A stretch of DNA of 64,000 bases from contig BLMJ01000232.1 of NCBI GenBank assembly GCA_011960625.1, positions 1-64,000 of the forward strand. The letters are read 5' to 3'. Positions 7,167-24,949 of this stretch are shown in pieces (position 1 is the stretch's first letter; each line of letters opens with the position of its first letter). The notes beneath the pieces are model-generated. The model saw only the letters and a program-made list of their open reading frames with translations. It had not been told where the DNA came from and did no database searches. The DNA comes from Lachnospiraceae bacterium (lineage in GTDB: Bacteria; Bacillota; Clostridia; Lachnospirales; Lachnospiraceae). A program made the position numbers and the translations under genes.

Positions 7167-8528
7167 ATGCAGTTACGCAGTGAGATCCCGGACACGTTTT
7201 GGAGTTTATTCCGAAGCGTGAACCGGGAGATTTATATAGAAGCACTTTTGTGCATCAATGATGAATATCAGTTCAGCAATTATTTCCTCACCCGAGAAGT
7301 CTGCCTCCAGGTATTAAGTGATATGAACGCAAGGAAACGTTTTGAGCTTAAATCAGAGGAGAGCGAGACAGAGACGGATATGATGGAGACGCCCTCTTTA
7401 AGGATCTTAAGCTGGCTTCTGAAAACCGGTTGGTTAAAACGAATTGAGGACTACCATACTCTGGTGACGAATATCGTAATTCCAGACTATTCGGCAGTAT
7501 TTATCGAGGCGTTTGAACGGCTGAACTCGGATGAGCTGGAAGAGACGGATATATACATTCAGAACGTCTACGCTACGCTGTTCTCTTTTCGTAATGACCC
7601 AAGATCCAGCCTGAGTATGTTAAGGACGGCGCTGGTCAATACCCGTAGGCTTAATAAAGCGCTCCAGGACATGCTTCACAACATGGACAAGTTTTTCGCG
7701 CGGCTTCTGGACCAGGAGTCATACGGGGATGTGCTTCGGGAGCATTTGGAAGGATACGTGGAGGAGATTGTGCGCAAGAAGTATCATATCCTGAAAACCT
7801 CCGATAATTTCTATATTTATAAGATGGATATTAAGAAGTTTATTCGAGAAATGCGGGAGAATGAGGAATGGATTGAGAATGTTCGCAGGTGTGCCCGGGC
7901 GATGGGGGATACGAGGGATGACGTGGTGGAGCTTCTGGATTTGATTGAAAGAGGCTTCGACGATATTGAGCATCGAATTTCTAACATGGATAAGGAGCAT
8001 ACGAAGTACGTGCGGGCGACTGTGACAAGACTTAATTATCTTTTAAGCGGTGAGTCGGACACCAAGGGGCTGGTGGTTCAGCTGCTGAACAAGATGTCGG
8101 CGCAGGAAGACAAAGAAGAGATATTTCAAAAGACGGCAGAGAAAATGAACCTTTCACTTATAGAAATATTGTCGGAGAAATCCTTGTACAAACGCCGAAA
8201 GAGCCGAAAGGATTTTGTAAGCCAGTTGGAGGCGGAGGTGGAAACGCCGGATTTGAATAAAGAGGATGTGCTTAAACTGAACCGGATACAGATGCGGTAT
8301 AGTAAGGAGCAGATTGAGGAATTTATTGAAGCCCATATGAAGGATGAGATTATGGAGGTGTCGGAGTTAGAAATACAGAATGAGGAAGAGTTCGAGAAGC
8401 TGATTCTGGCATACGATTACAGTACAAGGAAGAATAGCAGATATGGGGTTCTTGAAGAGGAAGCGGGGATTGTGGAGAAAAATGGATATCGGTATCCAGC
8501 CCTTAGCTTCGTACGCAAGAGTGTGTGA
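7167..8528 (+). CDS. jetA: JetA-like protein (DUF5716 / Wadjet JetA family, kleisin-like)
   Basis: 453 aa, MQLRSEIPDTFWSLFRSVNREIYIEALLCINDEYQFSNYFLTREVCLQVL... with a helical middle and a C-terminal winged-helix-like end. Family recognised from memory. Confidence 0.7.
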   Translation: MQLRSEIPDTFWSLFRSVNREIYIEALLCINDEYQFSNYFLTREVCLQVLSDMNARKRFELKSEESETETDMMETPSLRILSWLLKTGWLKRIEDYHTLVTNIVIPDYSAVFIEAFERLNSDELEETDIYIQNVYATLFSFRNDPRSSLSMLRTALVNTRRLNKALQDMLHNMDKFFARLLDQESYGDVLREHLEGYVEEIVRKKYHILKTSDNFYIYKMDIKKFIREMRENEEWIENVRRCARAMGDTRDDVVELLDLIERGFDDIEHRISNMDKEHTKYVRATVTRLNYLLSGESDTKGLVVQLLNKMSAQEDKEEIFQKTAEKMNLSLIEILSEKSLYKRRKSRKDFVSQLEAEVETPDLNKEDVLKLNRIQMRYSKEQIEEFIEAHMKDEIMEVSELEIQNEEEFEKLILAYDYSTRKNSRYGVLEEEAGIVEKNGYRYPALSFVRKSV

Positions 8529-15150: not shown

Positions 15151-15795
15151 TTGATAGAATATTTTGAACAAATCACTCAGGAAGAACAGGAGCGGCTGAC
15201 AGAGGTCATCCAGACCCTTTTCTCCCAGACCTATCTCCTGGAACGTCGATACGACCGGCGTACAGGAAGAATGCAGTACGTTAAGGAATACCAAACCTGC
15301 GGCAAACATCTGGAATTTCTGCGGGAGTATTTTGCCATAGCAGGAATTACGCTGAAAGAAAATGCACATATGGGTGTCGTCTATATCCAGGGCGGACAAG
15401 TCTGGGCAAAGAAGCTGTCAAGGCTTGGGACTATCTATCTGCTGGTACTGAAACTCATCTATGACGAGCAGATGGCGGCCGTATCCTCAAGCAGCCATAT
15501 AGTGACCACTTTGGGCGCCGTCAACGGCAAGGCAGGCGAATTTCGTGTGCTGAAAAGCCTGCCGTCTGTCACAGAAATGAGGCGCACAGTCGCGCTTCTG
15601 AAAAAATACCAGATGATTGAACCGCTGGAGGCGTTGGAAGAAATGAACGAGCAGACGAGAATCATCATTTACCCCTGTATTAATGCGGTACTTTTGGGGG
15701 ACGAAATTCGAAAACTGCTGGCAACATTCGGGGAGGAGGACAATTTTGGAGACGAAACAGCCATTCAAAGCACTATCGAGGATATGCCTGAATAA
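15151..15795 (+). CDS. jetB: JetB-like protein (DUF4194/DUF6063-type, MksE-like)
   Basis: 214 aa, TTG start 6-7 nt after GGGAGG. Winged-helix-like LLVLKLIYDEQ...; immediately upstream of and overlapping jetC. Confidence 0.75.
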   Translation: MIEYFEQITQEEQERLTEVIQTLFSQTYLLERRYDRRTGRMQYVKEYQTCGKHLEFLREYFAIAGITLKENAHMGVVYIQGGQVWAKKLSRLGTIYLLVLKLIYDEQMAAVSSSSHIVTTLGAVNGKAGEFRVLKSLPSVTEMRRTVALLKKYQMIEPLEALEEMNEQTRIIIYPCINAVLLGDEIRKLLATFGEEDNFGDETAIQSTIEDMPE

Positions 15796-18700
15796 TTGGC
15801 ATTACATAGACAGAAAGGTTCTGACGTTAAGCGAGGGAATCAATTTCTTTACCGGACATTCCGGCAGTGGGAAATCCACGGTCATCGACGCTTTGCAGAT
15901 CGTGCTGTACGCCAACACAGACGGCAGAGGCTTTTTTAACAAGGCCGCGGCTGACGACTCAGACCGTACCCTGATTGAATATCTGCGCGGCATGGTCAAT
16001 ATCAGCGAGAACAACGAGGCCCAATATTTAAGGAACCAGAATTTTTCCAGTACCATTGTGTTGGAGCTTGTGCATACAAAAACAAGGGAAAAACAGTGTG
16101 TGGGTGTAGTGTTTGACGTGGATACGGCGTCCAACGACGTGAGCCGGCTGTTTTTCTGGCATACAGGGGAATTACTGCAAGAGAATTACCGGATTGGGAA
16201 ACGGTGCCTAAGCGCTCTCGAATTGCGTGAATATCTGCAAAGAACCTTTTCTCCAGAACAGTTCTACTGCGGTGCAAGCAACGAACGTTTCCGCCGCCAG
16301 CTCTATGACATCTATCTGGGCGGGCTGGATATGGAGAAGTTTCCTAGACTATTCAAGCGGGCGATTCCCTTCCGCATGAATATCAAACTGGAAGAATTTG
16401 TGAAGGAATACATTTGCATGGAGCAGGATATCCACATCGAGGATTTGCAGGAGAGCGTCATGCAGTATGGACGTATGCGGGGAAAGATTGAGGAAACCTT
16501 GGAGGAGATCCGCAGGCTGATACAGATTCGGGAACGCTATCAGATTTACGACGGAAAACGCGAGGCTTCCAAGAAGTGTGCCTACCAGATTGAGCGTCTG
16601 GAAATGCTAAGGCTTACGGCTCAGGTGCGGGAATGTCGGGACAAGATAGTAAGCCGCAGGGAGGAGATTGCCGCAGGGGAAAGGCAGAAAGCCAAGCTTG
16701 AGGAAGAGCAGAGGGGAATCCAGAGGGAATATGAGGAGATCATCCTGAGGATTGCAGACAGCGGCTGCTCAGGACTTGAAGCAGAGCAGGAGGCTGTGGA
16801 TACAAAGCTTCGGCGTCTGGAAAACAGCCACAGGAGGTGGCAGCAGACGGCAGAACGGCTGAAAGGCTGGAGGAACAAAGACGTAACACCCAATCAAGTG
16901 TTGTGGGATATTGATAAATTTGCGAAGGAAGATATTTCGGAAGAAGAGCTTGAGAGGCTGATAGGAAGCCTTAAGGACCTTCAGACTGATTTGGAGGAAC
17001 AGAGGCAGGAGGCGGATGCCGACCTCCGCAAAATCAAGAAAGAAGAACGTGAGGCAAGGGATGAGCTGAAAGCCTTGAAACAGGGGAAGAAGGCGTATCC
17101 AAAGGAATTGGAGGAGGCAAGGTATAAGCTTAGAGGACGCCTTTTAGAGCGCTGCGGGAAATTCGTCAATGTGCAGATTCTTGCGGATCTCTTAGACCTG
17201 AAAGATGAACGATGGCAGAATGCGGTCGAAGGATATATGGGAAACAACAAACTGCTGCTCATCGTAGAACCGGCATATGCGAAGGCAGCCATGGACATAT
17301 ACCAGGAGATGGATAAGAAGAAATTCTTTCGGGCGTCTGTGCTGGATACAGAGAAGGTCATGAAGGAAGCACGCCCAGCGAGGAAAGGCTCGCTGGCGGA
17401 AGAGGTACTGGCGAAAGAGCCGTATGTACAGGCATATATTCATTTTTTCCTGGGAAATGTAATAAAATGCGAGACTGTGGAGGAATTAAGGGATAAGCAA
17501 ATCGGCATTACGCCGGACTGTGTCCTGTACCACAGTTTCCGCATGCAGCATATCCACCCGGATAACTATACTCGGTGCGCTTACATCGGTGAGGTTAGTA
17601 TGCGGCAGCGAATCCGCCGTCTGGAAGAGCAGTGCCAGAGGCTGCAGGAAGAACGGCTGCCGCTGCAGGAGCAGCTAGAGGAAATCCGTCAAACGATGGA
17701 GTTAGAGCAGCTTGGCCAGCCCATAGAGGATTATCTGGGGTGGCTTGGGGATATTCGGGAGATTCCGGACAAGCTTGGGCAGAAGAACCAGCTTGCAAAA
17801 AAAATACAGAAGTTAAAGAGTGAGTCTGTAGATGCCTGGGAGGAGCAGAAGCATAAGCTGCAGGAAAAGCAGGAGGCAAAGAAAGCTCAGGTTGTCAAGG
17901 TACAGGAGGCTGTCTGGAATTACCAGAAGGAGATTGAGAAGCTGAATGAAGAGCTTTTGCAGGCAGAGGCTTTCATTGTGGAGCAGCGTCGTAAGCTTTG
18001 GGGTGAGTCAGGAGAGAGGGCGGGTATATCCGGCGGAGACATCGGTAGTTTAGCGCCGTATGAGGAGGAATTTCAGCAATACCTTGCAGGCAAAAAATCT
18101 GTGAATTACGATTACCTTAAGCGTCAGAGGTTATCAGACCTCTACTCGATGCGGGAGGCCGAGGAAGAGGCTTACCAAAACTTAGTGGAGGAACGCAGCA
18201 GTTATGTGCGAAATTACCCGAATCGGACCTTCTCCACAGCCATTCGAGATAATAAACCTTACGAGGATTTATTAGAAAATCTCAGATGCGACGAGCTGGA
18301 GGCGTTTCGGGAGTCAGCAAAAGAGCAGGCGCGTTCTGCTGTAGAGCATTTTAAGGACGACTTTATTTTCAAAATCCGAAGCGCCATCCGGGAGGCATAT
18401 CAGAGGAAGGATGAGCTGAACCGGATTATAAGTGGGCTGGACTTTGGGAAGGATAAGTATCAGTTCGTGATTACGAAGAATAAAGGGGCGGACGGAAGGT
18501 ACTATAAGATGTTCATGGACGACGCATTACAGCTGCATCCGTCCCAGCTTACGGATACCATGGAGAACCAGCTCGACATGTTTACCATGGAACATGAGAA
18601 CCAGTACAAAGAGCTGATGAACGAGCTGATTCATGTGTTTATCCCGCCGGACAATGCAACTTCGGAGGAGCTTAATGAGGCGAAAAAGAATATGGATAAA

Positions 18701-19135
18701 TACGCAGATTACCGTACTTATTTGTCTTTCGATATGCAGCAGATTATAAAAGGGCAGAAGGATATGGCCATCGGGCTTGGCAGGATGATTAAGAAAAATT
18801 CCGGCGGTGAAGGACAGAATCCATTGTATGTTGCTCTGCTGGCGAGCTTTGCTCAGGTGTATAAGATCAACACTTCGGCGAAGATTAAGCGGAATCCGAC
18901 GATTCGCCTGGTAGTGTTGGACGAGGCGTTTTCTAAGATGGATGCGGAGAAAGTGGCAAGCTGTATTTCCCTGATTCGGGGACTTGGATTTCAGGCGATC
19001 ATCAGCGCCACTAACGATAAGATACAGAATTATCTGGAAAATGTGGATAAGACTTTTGTATATGCCAATCCTAATAAGCGGCATATATCGATCCAGGAGT
19101 TTGAGCGGAAAGATTTTGGAGAATTGAAAGAATAA
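15746..19135 (+). CDS. jetC: JetC-like SMC/MukB-type ATPase
   Basis: Walker A FFTGHSGSGKSTVIDALQ, long coiled coil, signature NSGGEGQNPLYVALLASFAQ, Walker B LVVLDEAFSKMD. Likely TTG start at 15746 after GGGGAGGAGG, overlapping jetB. Confidence 0.88.
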   Translation: METKQPFKALSRICLNNWHYIDRKVLTLSEGINFFTGHSGSGKSTVIDALQIVLYANTDGRGFFNKAAADDSDRTLIEYLRGMVNISENNEAQYLRNQNFSSTIVLELVHTKTREKQCVGVVFDVDTASNDVSRLFFWHTGELLQENYRIGKRCLSALELREYLQRTFSPEQFYCGASNERFRRQLYDIYLGGLDMEKFPRLFKRAIPFRMNIKLEEFVKEYICMEQDIHIEDLQESVMQYGRMRGKIEETLEEIRRLIQIRERYQIYDGKREASKKCAYQIERLEMLRLTAQVRECRDKIVSRREEIAAGERQKAKLEEEQRGIQREYEEIILRIADSGCSGLEAEQEAVDTKLRRLENSHRRWQQTAERLKGWRNKDVTPNQVLWDIDKFAKEDISEEELERLIGSLKDLQTDLEEQRQEADADLRKIKKEEREARDELKALKQGKKAYPKELEEARYKLRGRLLERCGKFVNVQILADLLDLKDERWQNAVEGYMGNNKLLLIVEPAYAKAAMDIYQEMDKKKFFRASVLDTEKVMKEARPARKGSLAEEVLAKEPYVQAYIHFFLGNVIKCETVEELRDKQIGITPDCVLYHSFRMQHIHPDNYTRCAYIGEVSMRQRIRRLEEQCQRLQEERLPLQEQLEEIRQTMELEQLGQPIEDYLGWLGDIREIPDKLGQKNQLAKKIQKLKSESVDAWEEQKHKLQEKQEAKKAQVVKVQEAVWNYQKEIEKLNEELLQAEAFIVEQRRKLWGESGERAGISGGDIGSLAPYEEEFQQYLAGKKSVNYDYLKRQRLSDLYSMREAEEEAYQNLVEERSSYVRNYPNRTFSTAIRDNKPYEDLLENLRCDELEAFRESAKEQARSAVEHFKDDFIFKIRSAIREAYQRKDELNRIISGLDFGKDKYQFVITKNKGADGRYYKMFMDDALQLHPSQLTDTMENQLDMFTMEHENQYKELMNELIHVFIPPDNATSEELNEAKKNMDKYADYRTYLSFDMQQIIKGQKDMAIGLGRMIKKNSGGEGQNPLYVALLASFAQVYKINTSAKIKRNPTIRLVVLDEAFSKMDAEKVASCISLIRGLGFQAIISATNDKIQNYLENVDKTFVYANPNKRHISIQEFERKDFGELKE

Positions 19136-19576: not shown

Positions 19577-20284
19577 ATGAAGGTAGAAAGAATGTGGTAT
19601 GATTGTCTGATTATAGATGATGAGAAACTTCTTGCGGATAGCACAGCGGAATATTTTAATCTTTTCGGAGTCAAGACGAAGGCAGTATACGGTGTTGCGG
19701 GATGCCGAGAATTTTTTGAGAGAAATACGGCCGGGCTTTTGCTTCTGGATATCAATCTAGAGGACGGCAGCGGTTTTGAACTATGTAAAGAGCTCAGGGA
19801 GAAGACGGAGATTCCCATTTTATTTATCTCCGCCCGTACCAGTGATGATGACAAGATTATAGCCTTCCATATCGGAGGGGATGATTACGTTCAGAAGCCC
19901 TATTCTTTGAGCGTCCTGCTTGCAAAGGTTAAGACGGTACTAAAACGTTTTGGACATAGTGGGACACCAAGAGATACCGTATATTCCGACGGGCGGCTTG
20001 CCGTAGACTTTCAGGCAAAGCAGGTATCTGTCGCTGGAAATGTTGTCAAGCTTACAGCGCGGGAATTTAAACTTCTGGCATATCTAATCAAGAATGAAAA
20101 TAGGGTACTCTCCAAACAGGAATTGTTTGAAGAGGTCTGGGAGGACAGGTTCACTGCCGATGGGACATTGAACGTGCATATCCGTAAGATCCGCGAGGCA
20201 ATCGAGCGAAATCCCGGCAAACCAGAGTATATTATTACAGTCTGGGGTGATGGTTATAGATTCTGCGGAGGTTCAAACTCTTGA
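19577..20284 (+). CDS. Response regulator, OmpR/PhoB family
   Basis: Receiver (LIIDDEKLLA, LLLLDINLEDGSGFELCKELRE) plus winged helix (LTAREFKLLAYLIKNENRVLSKQELFEEVWED). Confidence 0.93.
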   Translation: MKVERMWYDCLIIDDEKLLADSTAEYFNLFGVKTKAVYGVAGCREFFERNTAGLLLLDINLEDGSGFELCKELREKTEIPILFISARTSDDDKIIAFHIGGDDYVQKPYSLSVLLAKVKTVLKRFGHSGTPRDTVYSDGRLAVDFQAKQVSVAGNVVKLTAREFKLLAYLIKNENRVLSKQELFEEVWEDRFTADGTLNVHIRKIREAIERNPGKPEYIITVWGDGYRFCGGSNS

Positions 20285-21591
20285 AAAGAGAAGGGAAAAA
20301 TACTTTTTTGATTGGATTACTGATTCTTTTTGCAGTAGAAGTGACGGCTGTGTTCCTGTTTGCCTTTAGGGAAACGGATGAACGGCAGGATTCTGTTCTG
20401 GTAAACGAGGCAGTCCAGACAGTCCAGGCAGACTGGGAGAGTCTCGTTGGCGGCAGGAAAGAACACGAAAACCAGACAGAGCTTGCGTATGTCGTGCTGG
20501 ATATGGACGGAAGGGTTTTGTTTCGAACCGCACCAGGGCTTAGCGAAAGTATCAATAGGGCTGTGCTTCACAGAGATACCATTCTCGATCTCACGGTCGG
20601 CGGCCAGATTGTGGGGAAGCTTATCATTGAGAATGACAGCGGCCAGATTTACAAGAAGCAGAAACAGACGTTTACCCTCGTAATGTTGGCGGCTATGCTC
20701 CTGCAATGCGGTATCTGTATCGGATATTTTGCTTATATAAAATGTGTGATCATAAGACCCTTTCAAAAACTAAAGGGCTTCGCACAGCGTGTTGCCGGCG
20801 GCAATCTGGATATTCCGCTTACAATGGACAGGCAGAACCTTTTCGGCGCATTTACGGAGAGTTTTGACATCATGCGTTCAGAACTAAAAAAAGCGCGGAT
20901 TGCGGAGGCGAAAGCCAATGCCAGTAAGAAGGAGCTTGTTGCGAAGCTGTCCCACGACATCAAGACGCCTGTCGCTAGTATTAAGGCAGCGTCCGAAGTA
21001 GGGGCGGCGCTGGCTGACAGCGAAAGGGTTAAGGATAACTATACACAGATTATCCGCAAGGCAGACCAGATTAACGAACTTATTACCAACCTGTTTACGG
21101 CAGCTTTGGAGGAGCTTGAGCAGCTTGCGGTGACGCCTGTGGACATGGGGAGCGCAGCCCTTCAGGAAATGCTTGAAAGTGCGGATTATCTTCATCGCGG
21201 GGCGGTTCCGGAGATACCAAGCTGTATGCTGTATGCAGATCCTCTCCGGCTTAACCAGGTGTTCGACAATATTTTTGCAAATTCTTATAAATATGCTGAT
21301 ACGAAGATTGAGGTTACGGCACGCAGGGAAGGAAGGCGGCTAATGATATGTATGGAAGATTATGGGGGCGGCGTCCGTGAAGAAGAGGTGCCGCTTTTAA
21401 AGGAGAAATTTAAGAGGGGGAGCAATGCGGGAAATGTGGAAGGCGCTGGGCTTGGGCTTTATATTTCGGATTATTTTATGAAGGAGATGGGGGGAGAGCT
21501 TGTGATAAAAAATGGCGGGCATGGATTGGAGGTGACTGTGGGAGTTCTTTTGGACCCTAAAAATTCGGCAGATCCAGAAAGCCACTTTTAA
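20281..21591 (+). CDS. Sensor histidine kinase (HAMP, HisKA, HATPase)
   Basis: H box KLSHDIKTPVASIKAASEVG, N box NQVFDNIFANSYKYAD, G box EGAGLGLYISDYF. TTG start overlaps the regulator stop. Confidence 0.93.
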   Translation: MKREGKNTFLIGLLILFAVEVTAVFLFAFRETDERQDSVLVNEAVQTVQADWESLVGGRKEHENQTELAYVVLDMDGRVLFRTAPGLSESINRAVLHRDTILDLTVGGQIVGKLIIENDSGQIYKKQKQTFTLVMLAAMLLQCGICIGYFAYIKCVIIRPFQKLKGFAQRVAGGNLDIPLTMDRQNLFGAFTESFDIMRSELKKARIAEAKANASKKELVAKLSHDIKTPVASIKAASEVGAALADSERVKDNYTQIIRKADQINELITNLFTAALEELEQLAVTPVDMGSAALQEMLESADYLHRGAVPEIPSCMLYADPLRLNQVFDNIFANSYKYADTKIEVTARREGRRLMICMEDYGGGVREEEVPLLKEKFKRGSNAGNVEGAGLGLYISDYFMKEMGGELVIKNGGHGLEVTVGVLLDPKNSADPESHF

Positions 21592-21684
21592 ATTGTATCT
21601 TTTTATAGTATAATATAATTTAAATAGTTCCAATTAGCTGCGGTTTCTTCCAAGGATAAGGCAGGAAGGAAGGTTTAGAGCAAT

Positions 21685-24600
21685 ATGATAATCCAAACCA
21701 ACATACCGGCTATGTTTGCGCTGCGGCAGAAGAAGAGTACTGACAATTCAGTTGCAAAGAATTTGGAAAAGCTCTCTTCGGGTTTTCGGATTCGGAATGC
21801 GGCGGATGATGCGGCAGGCCTTGCCGTATCGGAAAAGATGCGCGCTCAGATTACCGAGCTGGAACGCTGCGAAATCAATGTTTCCGAGGGAATCGACATT
21901 GCACAGAGCGCAGACGGTGCACTAGAAGAGGTAGACGAGATGCTGCGCAGGGCCAGAGAACTGTGTCTGCAGGCGAGCAACGGCACCTACACCGACCAGG
22001 AACGCCTCTACATGAGTGAGGAGATTAACCAGCTCTTTGGCGAGATTGACCACATCACGTCGACCAGCAGGTATAATACCATTCCCCTCTTCCGCAGTAT
22101 TCCCACTGACTCCAACGACCCTGTTTATCTCTATCTGGAAGAGTTCAACAAAGTTGCGGATCAGCAATTGTGGGGCGAGATGGACTTTGTGAAAGACGAG
22201 AAGTTTGGCCCGCCCGCTGATCCCACCCCCGCAACCGTTACATTCCAGCTGGAGGACGACATAGGAACGAGCTATGCGTCAGTGCTGGACAAAAGATCAA
22301 TTAAAATCGGCAGCACTATGTACACTTTCCGGGCAGACGTCGATAGAAACCTCTCTGGCAACCCAAGTATCATTTCAATCAAGAATATCCAGACGGTCAA
22401 GGAGGCGATGGAGAAGCTTGCCGACTTCCCTCATATCGACAAGGTAACCGTAGATGCAACCACTAACAAGGTAACCCTTACGGGAAGTTTGGACGACCAC
22501 TATTATACTGTTCAGGCGAATGGAACCTCTTCACAGTATCGGGCGCCGAAAGGAACAGGGGAAGGTAAAAATGGCTGGGTAGTACAGAATCCGGCGGGAG
22601 TGGCGTCCCTCGGAGAAGTGGACGGTAATGGTATTACAAACAACCAGCCTGTGTATGGAACGGATTTATCCCTTTCCTTTGATATGTCCAATGTCAAAGA
22701 GCCGATCGACATTGCTAATTTGAGAAGGAATACACTAAGTATTTACATAGAGGGAGTCACTACTCCACACAGCTTAGATATTCCTTACAGCCAGATTTTT
22801 ACTCAGACCACAGGTACGATTACGAGAGATGATTTCGCCAATGCAGTTATAAACAAGCTTAAAAGCACGGCTCCCCTTGACGGCGCCAATACGACGATAA
22901 ACTATACGCCGCCCAATCTGGAGATTCACACACAATTTCCCGCCTCCGCTTCTGACGGTTCGAAGCGTTCGGCGTACATCACGGAATCGACAGAGGGCAG
23001 ACAGGAGGATCCTTTGGGACCGAAATGGCAGACTAGCGCGCCCACTTTCACTACGAGTACCACCCCGCCCTCCGCAGAGGTAGGAGGTACCTTTACTGTA
23101 AATATTCCTGACGCCAGCTCCTTACATGTACCGTTCTCCTTCCAGTTGGGATCCTTTTATCATGTTTTTTATGACAGCACAAACCCGGACACCCAGATAA
23201 AAACAGACGGAACAACGATATTCAGCACCGGAGACTACTACACGAATAAGTATGATATAAGCGGCAAGACACCGGCTCAGATTCGTGAAATAGTGGTGAA
23301 TATGATCAAGAATAAAGGCGGCGGTTCTGTAAAAGAGCAGGGTAATTCGTTGATTTTCACCTCGAATCCGAACACCTCCGCCCCTAGTTTTACAATCCAG
23401 GGGAGCAGCGTGGTGGTTAAAACCGCGATACCGTCCAGTAAGCCTGTGCTGACGGGAAGCACCATTCTTTTTAGCCAGGAAGTGTCCGTTCCTTTTTCTG
23501 TAGAGAAGCCTTTTGACGCCTCCAAGCTCATCGGAAAAGGCTTCGGTCTCAGCAACGGAAACAGCGACTACGTCTACAAGTGGGAATTTACCGACGGAAC
23601 GAGCCTGCGGTCAGACTACCGTGATATGGATATTTCCGGCTGCACCAGCATTTCGGATCTTGCCGCCGCTATGGAAGCAGCCCTCCGAGCGACAAACGAG
23701 TTCAACGACTGCAAAGTTGAAGTGGATGAAAGCCAGACTCCCGCAGCCTTATCCATAAAGTGGCAGCGAAAATGCAATTACAACAAAGTATCGGTTACCG
23801 ATGGCGCGGAGGGCGTGTCGGGGATTATGAAGGGAGGCCCCGAGAAGTTTTCCGGCGGAACTACCGTGGGTCACGAGCAGAAAATTCTGGATTTCTCCTC
23901 GATTAATACCAATAACTTGGATACCCTGTTGGGCAAAGGATTCCGGGTTAATTGTGCAACCTGCGAGGGGGAATATATCAACGTATACTTTTGCTGGAAA
24001 AACGACGGAAGCGCGCCTCCGTCCTTCACCCATGACGTCGTCATCAACGGGCAGACTGTGACCCGTACCATCCACAATATCCCGGTAGAGCTGTCTAAAA
24101 TCACCAGCGGGGATCAGATTGTGAAGAGCATCGTCGATCAGGTGAAGCCAAGCCTCAACCATTATACGGATATGGAAGTGGGCGACCCGTCCACCTCCCT
24201 GGTCATTCAGGACAAACGTCTGGGCAAGATCTTTGACGTTACGACAGGGCAGGAATACATCGGTTCTGTGGAAAGCGGCGTGTTTACGAATTTTACCTAC
24301 AAGGTAACAAAGGAAGAGATTGCTCCGTCTGAGCCGGGCGAAGGACAGTTGTTGGATTTCCGGATCAGCGAAGTCTCTATCTATGCGGGACATAACCCGG
24401 AGCCTGAGTTAATTCCCATCCACCTGCCCTTCCTGTCCCTGACACAGTTAAGGCTGAATCCGCCAAAGCTGGTGGATCTTACAGATAAAGACCAGAAGCC
24501 TTTAAGCCTGCTTAAGAAGATCGACTGTGCCCATGACAGCATCGCAGACATCAGGGCGGTTATGGGGGCAGACTACAACCGTTTAGAGCACGCTTATCAA

Positions 24601-24774
24601 GCTTTGACCAATACTACCGTCAACTTAAAAGATGCAGAAAGCCGCATTCGGGATGCGGATATGGCAGGCCTTATGATGGAAAAGATTAAAAACGACATCT
24701 TAAGGGAGCCCCAGCAGAGCATCATTGCCCAAGCCAGCAAACGTCCTGAACTTGTGCTTCAAATGCTTCGTTAA
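21685..24774 (+). CDS. Very large flagellin (1029 aa)
   Basis: Canonical flagellin N-terminus (NIPAMFALRQKKSTDNSVAKNLEKLSSGFRIRNAADDAAGLAVSEKMRAQI) and C-terminus (NTTVNLKDAESRIRDADMAGLMMEKIKNDILREPQQSIIAQASKRPELVLQMLR). Confidence 0.92.
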   Translation: MIIQTNIPAMFALRQKKSTDNSVAKNLEKLSSGFRIRNAADDAAGLAVSEKMRAQITELERCEINVSEGIDIAQSADGALEEVDEMLRRARELCLQASNGTYTDQERLYMSEEINQLFGEIDHITSTSRYNTIPLFRSIPTDSNDPVYLYLEEFNKVADQQLWGEMDFVKDEKFGPPADPTPATVTFQLEDDIGTSYASVLDKRSIKIGSTMYTFRADVDRNLSGNPSIISIKNIQTVKEAMEKLADFPHIDKVTVDATTNKVTLTGSLDDHYYTVQANGTSSQYRAPKGTGEGKNGWVVQNPAGVASLGEVDGNGITNNQPVYGTDLSLSFDMSNVKEPIDIANLRRNTLSIYIEGVTTPHSLDIPYSQIFTQTTGTITRDDFANAVINKLKSTAPLDGANTTINYTPPNLEIHTQFPASASDGSKRSAYITESTEGRQEDPLGPKWQTSAPTFTTSTTPPSAEVGGTFTVNIPDASSLHVPFSFQLGSFYHVFYDSTNPDTQIKTDGTTIFSTGDYYTNKYDISGKTPAQIREIVVNMIKNKGGGSVKEQGNSLIFTSNPNTSAPSFTIQGSSVVVKTAIPSSKPVLTGSTILFSQEVSVPFSVEKPFDASKLIGKGFGLSNGNSDYVYKWEFTDGTSLRSDYRDMDISGCTSISDLAAAMEAALRATNEFNDCKVEVDESQTPAALSIKWQRKCNYNKVSVTDGAEGVSGIMKGGPEKFSGGTTVGHEQKILDFSSINTNNLDTLLGKGFRVNCATCEGEYINVYFCWKNDGSAPPSFTHDVVINGQTVTRTIHNIPVELSKITSGDQIVKSIVDQVKPSLNHYTDMEVGDPSTSLVIQDKRLGKIFDVTTGQEYIGSVESGVFTNFTYKVTKEEIAPSEPGEGQLLDFRISEVSIYAGHNPEPELIPIHLPFLSLTQLRLNPPKLVDLTDKDQKPLSLLKKIDCAHDSIADIRAVMGADYNRLEHAYQALTNTTVNLKDAESRIRDADMAGLMMEKIKNDILREPQQSIIAQASKRPELVLQMLR

Positions 24775-24790
24775 GAATCCACTCATCAGA

Positions 24791-24819
24791 GAACCGCAGG
24801 ATACTTTCCTGCGGTTCTT
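24791..24819 (+). terminator. Intrinsic terminator after flagellin
   Basis: GAACCGCAGGA-tactt-TCCTGCGGTTCTT. Confidence 0.8.
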
Positions 24820-24949
24820 GAATGTGCGTCTTTGTTTAGGGAGTAAGATATTTAAGGAATCTTTAAGGATTGCCTAAAGACATATAAGATTTAAAAAAAT
24901 AAAATAGAACGTGTAATTGATAACTACCCGTAGTAAAGGAAGAGTTGAT

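Follow-up and report, generated by a model that had tools for sequence, protein, structure and literature searches.

The giant flagellin gene and its neighbourhood

The window, a stretch of 64,000 nucleotides of contig BLMJ01000232.1, derives from a mouse-gut bacterium represented by a GTDB Sporofaciens (Lachnospiraceae) MAG of 2.42 Mb that is 62.85% complete. Its positions 21685-24774 form one open frame of 1029 aa without internal stops, about three times the length of a usual flagellum subunit (Table 1). Pfam Flagellin_N (PF00669) matches residues 3-138 (E 5e-33) and Flagellin_C (PF00700) residues 943-1028 (E 6e-15), each match covering almost the whole model. The first-pass annotation's description of an isolated 1029-aa flagellin with canonical D0/D1 ends and some 800 aa of non-core sequence between them was thus borne out: about 790 residues between the ends are free of any known domain, and the insert is indeed unlike D2/D3 of model flagellins. 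As a PF00669 protein longer than 1000 aa, the product is a giant flagellin in the sense of Thomson et al. (2018).

Table 1. Coordinates of the features at the giant flagellin locus, as positions in the window.
Feature	Position	Strand	Basis
Giant flagellin gene, 1029 aa	21685..24774	+	ORF, Pfam, orthologues
N-terminal D0/D1, residues 1-138, Flagellin_N	21685..22098	+	Pfam
Insert module 1, residues 183-286, strands-helix-strands	22231..22542	+	AF2 secondary structure; conserved in G510 homologue
Insert module 2, residues 327-436	22663..22992	+	AF2; profile match to module 5 marginal
Insert module 3, residues 456-582, best-modelled insert part	23050..23430	+	AF2, pLDDT mostly 70-89
Insert module 4, residues 596-706, near-repeat copy 1	23470..23802	+	AF2 and profile comparison
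Insert module 5 (cysteine module), residues 732-870	23878..24294	+	AF2 (end at 867); module-family searches, profile comparison
C757-A-T-C760, invariant CxxC pair	23953..23964	+	Alignments
His826, invariant together with CxxC pair	24160..24162	+	Alignments
C-terminal D1/D0, residues 943-1028, Flagellin_C	24511..24768	+	Pfam
Sigma-A-like promoter TTTAAA-16-TATAAT	21587..21614	+	Similar element upstream of L004, L005, L006, L009; single-window hit not above chance
Terminator-like perfect 12-bp hairpin AGAACCGCAGGA/TCCTGCGGTTCT	24790..24818	+	Similar hairpins after L004, L005, L007
Segment missing from kinase-ABC locus of G006, G007, G008, G009, G011	21569..24845	+	Approximate; left end within ~30 bases

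Beyond the two flagellin models, Pfam gave no match above cut-off. NCBIfam, PADLOC and PHROGs returned only flagellin or flagellin-like HAP models (NCBIfam) and D0/D1 (PHROGs), and no enzyme or toxin domain emerged from Pfam, NCBIfam, PADLOC, PHROGs or PDB sequence searches. The Hag-type flagellin model scores 176 bits vs 86 bits for the FlgL model; both fall below the curated whole-protein cut-off, as expected given the long insert. Because the FlgL score is lower than the flagellin score, we rejected an identity as FlgL/HAP3 or FliD. A flagellinolysin was likewise discarded, since the sequence lacks HExxH and has no peptidase match in Pfam or NCBIfam, as was a defence protein, since no PADLOC match was found.

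No other flagellin gene lies in the window, the other two PF00669 matches of the MAG being on different contigs, and inspection of the ORF list by eye revealed no further recognisable flagellar structural gene, as first reported. The neighbours are also as described, with an ABC transporter on one side and a response regulator and histidine kinase on the other. Elsewhere in the window, PADLOC recognises Wadjet type I JetA (7167-8528), JetB (15151-15795) and JetC (15683-19135); ABC-transporter and other genes fill the ~6.6 kb that separates JetA from JetB/JetC, and JetD was not seen.

The insert and its cysteine module

AlphaFold2 (AF2) run on six orthologues gave an overall pLDDT of 47, with values mostly of 70-89 at residues ~440-690, and a second model gave 45; confidence is low overall, and support for the module fold comes mostly from residues ~440-690. 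In the predicted secondary structure, a strands-helix-strands pattern recurs about five times (modules 1-5, Table 1). Partly on this basis, the insert reads as five putative beta-alpha-beta modules. In Foldseek searches with the insert, the top matches among flagellar proteins were FliD D2-D3 domains, none of them at E <= 0.001, which given the low AF2 confidence at the cysteine module is a mere hint. The structure prediction and fold search of the central domain that had been suggested as a check were carried through, with weak models and no match at that threshold. A PDB sequence search with modules 4-5 and a Pfam search with module 5 each returned zero matches.

An internal near-repeat had been noticed at ~23.5 kb and ~23.9 kb, and profile comparison upholds it. 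The region of residues ~590-712 (copy 1) matches the profile of the copy-2 family with an HH probability of 93.8% (E 1.7e-7), and none of 100 column-shuffled controls did as well; against the six orthologues alone, the match of copy 1 is weak (E 0.008). Module 4 is thus homologous to the module-5 family, and the near-repeat is a true duplication. What needs correcting in the original two-copy description is the number of modules, which is about five. Module 2 shows a marginal profile link to the module-5 family; for modules 1 and 3, the comparison lent no sequence support to a common origin with module 5.

The protein has nine cysteines (62, 94, 653, 676, 697, 757, 760, 770 and 948), and the second near-repeat copy does carry the three originally counted there (C757, C760 and C770). 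It shows the module motif DFS...L.G.GF..C.xC...Y...F...H. C757, C760 and His826 are invariant in all 20 aligned module-5 sequences, namely 19 plus a homologue from a different family of the order (G510); 3 of the 19 have the spacing CxxxC. C770 is restricted to the window protein and the giants L004-L008, and C62, C94 and C653 are also invariant across the six giants. The G510 homologue has just two cysteines, both within CxxC.

The earlier remark that such cysteines are unusual for flagellins holds against Salmonella-type proteins but not for Lachnospiraceae, in whose flagellins the module-5 family recurs (12 of 299 sampled genomes, from 298 genera). Flagellins with the module (L021, L024, L058-L068) are mostly ordinary ones of 440-530 aa. 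Two further long flagellins of the family, L073 (1043 aa) and L072 (1015 aa), likewise carry the module; in the order, G039 has long flagellins of 1018 and 981 aa.

In comparisons with four orthologues from congeners, every region has a dN/dS of 0.04-0.37, so the gene is constrained throughout. Values for residues 731-850 (module 5) are 0.04-0.09, as low as in the C-terminal D1/D0, and residues 141-460 have ~0.3, with high amino-acid change. The cysteine module is thus the most conserved portion of the projection. Because the CxxC pair and the histidine are kept in module-5 flagellins so divergent, they suggest either a disulfide-pinned loop packed on the histidine or a metal site.

Distribution, descent and movement

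Five of the 12 genus genomes have the giant: this MAG (G000), G008, G009, G011 and G006, where it is cut off. It was undetected in G001, G003, G004, G005 and G010, each at least 91% complete, although these are drafts and single absences are weak. Within the genus, canonical flagellins measure 270-330 aa, and the distinct ones examined are cysteine-free but for one. This length survey addresses the concern, raised in the first-pass annotation, that all flagellins of the lineage might share the giant length and domain; the length is not ordinary for the genus, and giant flagellins are known as a kind.

Orthologues share 75-78% identity with the window protein, plus one at 42%, and the frames are intact in all five full-length orthologues as well as in the G510 homologue (L085:2973-6374, 1133 aa). 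Since the latter aligns across the insert (740 columns, E 6.5e-29), the insert architecture is old. Modules 4-5 are rare and scattered: a search of the order matched 3 of 392 genomes, one of them solely via the lone cysteine module, and among 391 genomes drawn from the class the window's own was the only match.

In a D0/D1 tree the six giants form one clade (100/99) on a long stem and fall in a group (92/94) that also holds the canonical flagellins of the genus and its flagellinolysin-like ones. The D0/D1 of the CxxC-module flagellins form a clade separate from the giants (96/96), so the module and D0/D1 have different affinities. Tentatively, and bearing the long branches in mind, the module and the filament core may have had different histories through domain shuffling.

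The MAG contains two more flagellin-like genes. One (L001:43-1908, G000:C27, minus strand) encodes a flagellin of 621 aa whose insert contains HELMH and EWFVEGTAQ, which makes it flagellinolysin-like; its homologues in G001, G008 (L071:2167-4041) and G010 fall with it in one clade of the D0/D1 tree. The other (L003:118-888, G000:C163, minus strand) encodes a flagellin-like protein of 256 aa (MSRISAISSTTPYLYGHISSG...); most congeners have relatives of it, 256-278 aa long.

The genes flanking the giant differ in every case but the near pair L006/L009. At the window's site, the kinase and ABC transporter adjoin without a flagellin in G006, G007, G008, G009 and G011, and G001 has other genes there. 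The kinase-ABC spacing in G006 is ~100 bases, with the regulator lost at the contig end. Homology to the window stops at ~21540-21568 on the left and resumes at ~24846 on the right; the extra segment of ~3.28 kb comprises the flagellin, its promoter and the hairpin.

Divergence at fourfold sites between G009 and G011 is 0.238 for the flagellin, compared with 0.469 for FlhA (Fisher p 3e-10) and 0.451 for ProS (Fisher p 2e-7), and by dS the flagellin contrasts in like manner with the kinase and transporter genes. Core genes place G009 closest to G000, and the flagellin places it closest to G011. Because the synonymous divergence of the flagellin is too low for vertical descent in this species pair, these data support horizontal transfer of the giant within the genus. 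With different sites, an empty locus in relatives and synonymous divergence under that of core genes, the gene has the marks of a mobile one. No integrase or transposase was found near it, and no convincing target or flanking repeats or mobile-element ends. Carriage by phage was rejected, as module 5 has no viral-contig relative or phage match, and so was carriage by plasmids, where the top hits span no more than 28% of the query, as would be expected from D0/D1 alone.

By eye, the contents of the kinase-ABC gap vary by species (L087, L088, L089, L090). G008 and G007 have a short ORF (MSTYEVLSLLFLGG...) that looks like a holin-like toxin, G011 a reverse-strand pair resembling HicA/HicB, G001 XRE and ABC genes, and the window the giant flagellin. 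The gap is an apparent insertion hot spot.

Transcription signals and possible role

TATAAT precedes the giants of G000, G006, G008, G009 and G011 but not L007 or L008, and CTTTTAAA...GTAGTATAAT or a close variant lies upstream of all Sporofaciens giants but L007. CTTAAG-N15-TACGATAATAT or a near variant is found in 13 of the 18 canonical flagellin upstreams of the genus (CGATAATAT searched), and the canonical -10 CGATAATAT in none of eight giants. In Butyrivibrio, the consensus -10 is MCGATAa for sigma-28 and cATAAT for sigma-43 (PMC3720852). By this comparison of motifs, the promoters of the giants look sigma-A/43-like rather than sigma-28-like. A sigma-43-like promoter alone is not new, since such promoters have previously been inferred for some Lachnospiraceae flagellins (PMC3720852). 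The leader of the giant gene at 21615-21684, like the upstreams of L004-L007, holds hairpin-like sequence that varies in size and ends near TGCGGTTTCTTACAA, a stretch similar to the 3' half of the terminator that follows the gene. No RNA families were found around the giant gene.

We think it fairly probable that the giant serves as a functional accessory flagellin whose gene moves singly, bringing its own promoter and terminator. It would be transcribed mainly by the housekeeping sigma factor, not alongside the sigma-28 flagellins, and exported via the flagellar type III apparatus; this apparatus exists in the genome, given that FlhA is present in this MAG and its 11 congeners (12/12 genus genomes). 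Export and filament incorporation through D0/D1 are the most likely course: D0/D1 would polymerise the giant, as a minor or conditional subunit, into filaments of mostly ~300-aa flagellins, or else into a thick filament of its own. The 790-residue insert would then project from the filament as a chain of small domains, of which the cysteine module may be the structurally pinned or the ligand- or metal-binding part. Such a projection would act at the surface (mucus, host or neighbour contact; phage or antibody shielding) rather than in propulsion. The evidence for movement and selection is good, whereas that for function is indirect. It is tempting to go further and see in the CxxC-His module a metal-binding or redox-responsive element of the flagellar surface, and in the single-gene giants that carry it exchangeable filament decorations that circulate among gut Lachnospirales and are expressed independently of the sigma-28 programme; taken as a whole, this seems rather unlikely.

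Giant flagellins can form a whole filament (PMC6248924), and an intact D0/D1 would also suit the principal filament protein of a thick flagellum such as that of Bermanella marisrubri. The MAG has just this long flagellin, the flagellinolysin-like one and the 256-aa one, but it is only 63% complete, and the better-assembled carriers G008, G009 and G011 also have several canonical flagellins. Most congeners do without the giant, and the sigma-28-like promoter sits at 13 of the 18 canonical upstreams examined, so we hold this explanation to be unlikely. A soluble protein secreted through the flagellar apparatus, with D0/D1 serving as the export signal, would fit the absence of partner genes nearby, a promoter unlike the flagellin regulon, and a D0/D1 that diverges from canonical flagellins on a long stem. 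It is nonetheless improbable, as the C-terminal D0 is conserved to the final residues, which export alone would not need, and the domain searches above revealed no enzyme or toxin.

That the gene is rarely used and kept for antigenic variation, or is decaying, might be read from its patchy occurrence in 5 of 12 congeneric genomes and the dN/dS of ~0.3 at residues 141-460; the intact frames of the five full-length orthologues and the G510 homologue, and strong purifying selection, make this quite improbable. Control of the giant by the two-component system at 19577-21591, which had been proposed from its position next to the flagellin on the same strand, fares worst. The kinase/regulator and ABC genes occur together without the flagellin in the five congeners named above, and the flagellin has other neighbours in other species, which largely refutes control as a conserved link and leaves it scarcely credible for this gene; the system belongs with the ABC transporter.

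E. coli has flagellin genes at flkA, fllA and flmA, apart from the normal flagellar locus and mobile within the group. Like these non-fliC flagellin loci (PMC7018530), the window gene lies outside the flagellar locus and is mobile, but it encodes a giant, cysteine-bearing flagellin of an anaerobic Firmicute and occupies several different sites. Flagellins >1000 aa have been surveyed, with the mouse-gut Eubacterium plexicaudatum among the Firmicutes named (Thomson et al. 2018, PMC6248924); a thick filament was shown for two marine species only, and the inserts of Oceanospirillales giants were inferred to be vertical (PMC6248924). With those giants, including B. marisrubri and E. plexicaudatum, the window protein shares D0/D1 ends, a length above 1000 aa and duplicated insert domains; it differs from them, by their description, in its insert modules (CxxC-His), its lone gene off flagellar loci and its horizontal movement. 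As in flagellinolysins (Eckhard et al. 2017, PMC5595980), a domain is inserted in the flagellin variable region, yet here without HExxH or a protease domain match. The CxxC-module flagellins of Lachnospiraceae share module 5 with its invariant CxxC and histidine, but are mostly shorter and have their D0/D1 in a separate clade. Giant flagellins are already known; the new part is the orphan, moving form with an invariant CxxC-His module, for which no description was found in the literature searched.

In gut Lachnospiraceae, flagellins count as major immune antigens, and the flagellin set of a species is usually viewed as inherited with its flagellar genes and controlled by sigma-28. Here a single large surface protein seems to pass between species on its own, and it has a conserved site of cysteines and histidine in a protein that an anaerobe would export. 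Because Sporofaciens musculi WCA-9-b2, which carries the 1028-aa orthologue L005, is cultured, expression, filament thickness and metal or disulfide state are directly measurable. As a minor observation on flagellin loci, in L069 (G008:C2:28000-46000) flagellin genes alternate with large proteins that start with MNIQLTISMLVSDRMETLGKCL and are glycosyltransferase-like by eye; these possibly serve flagellin glycosylation.
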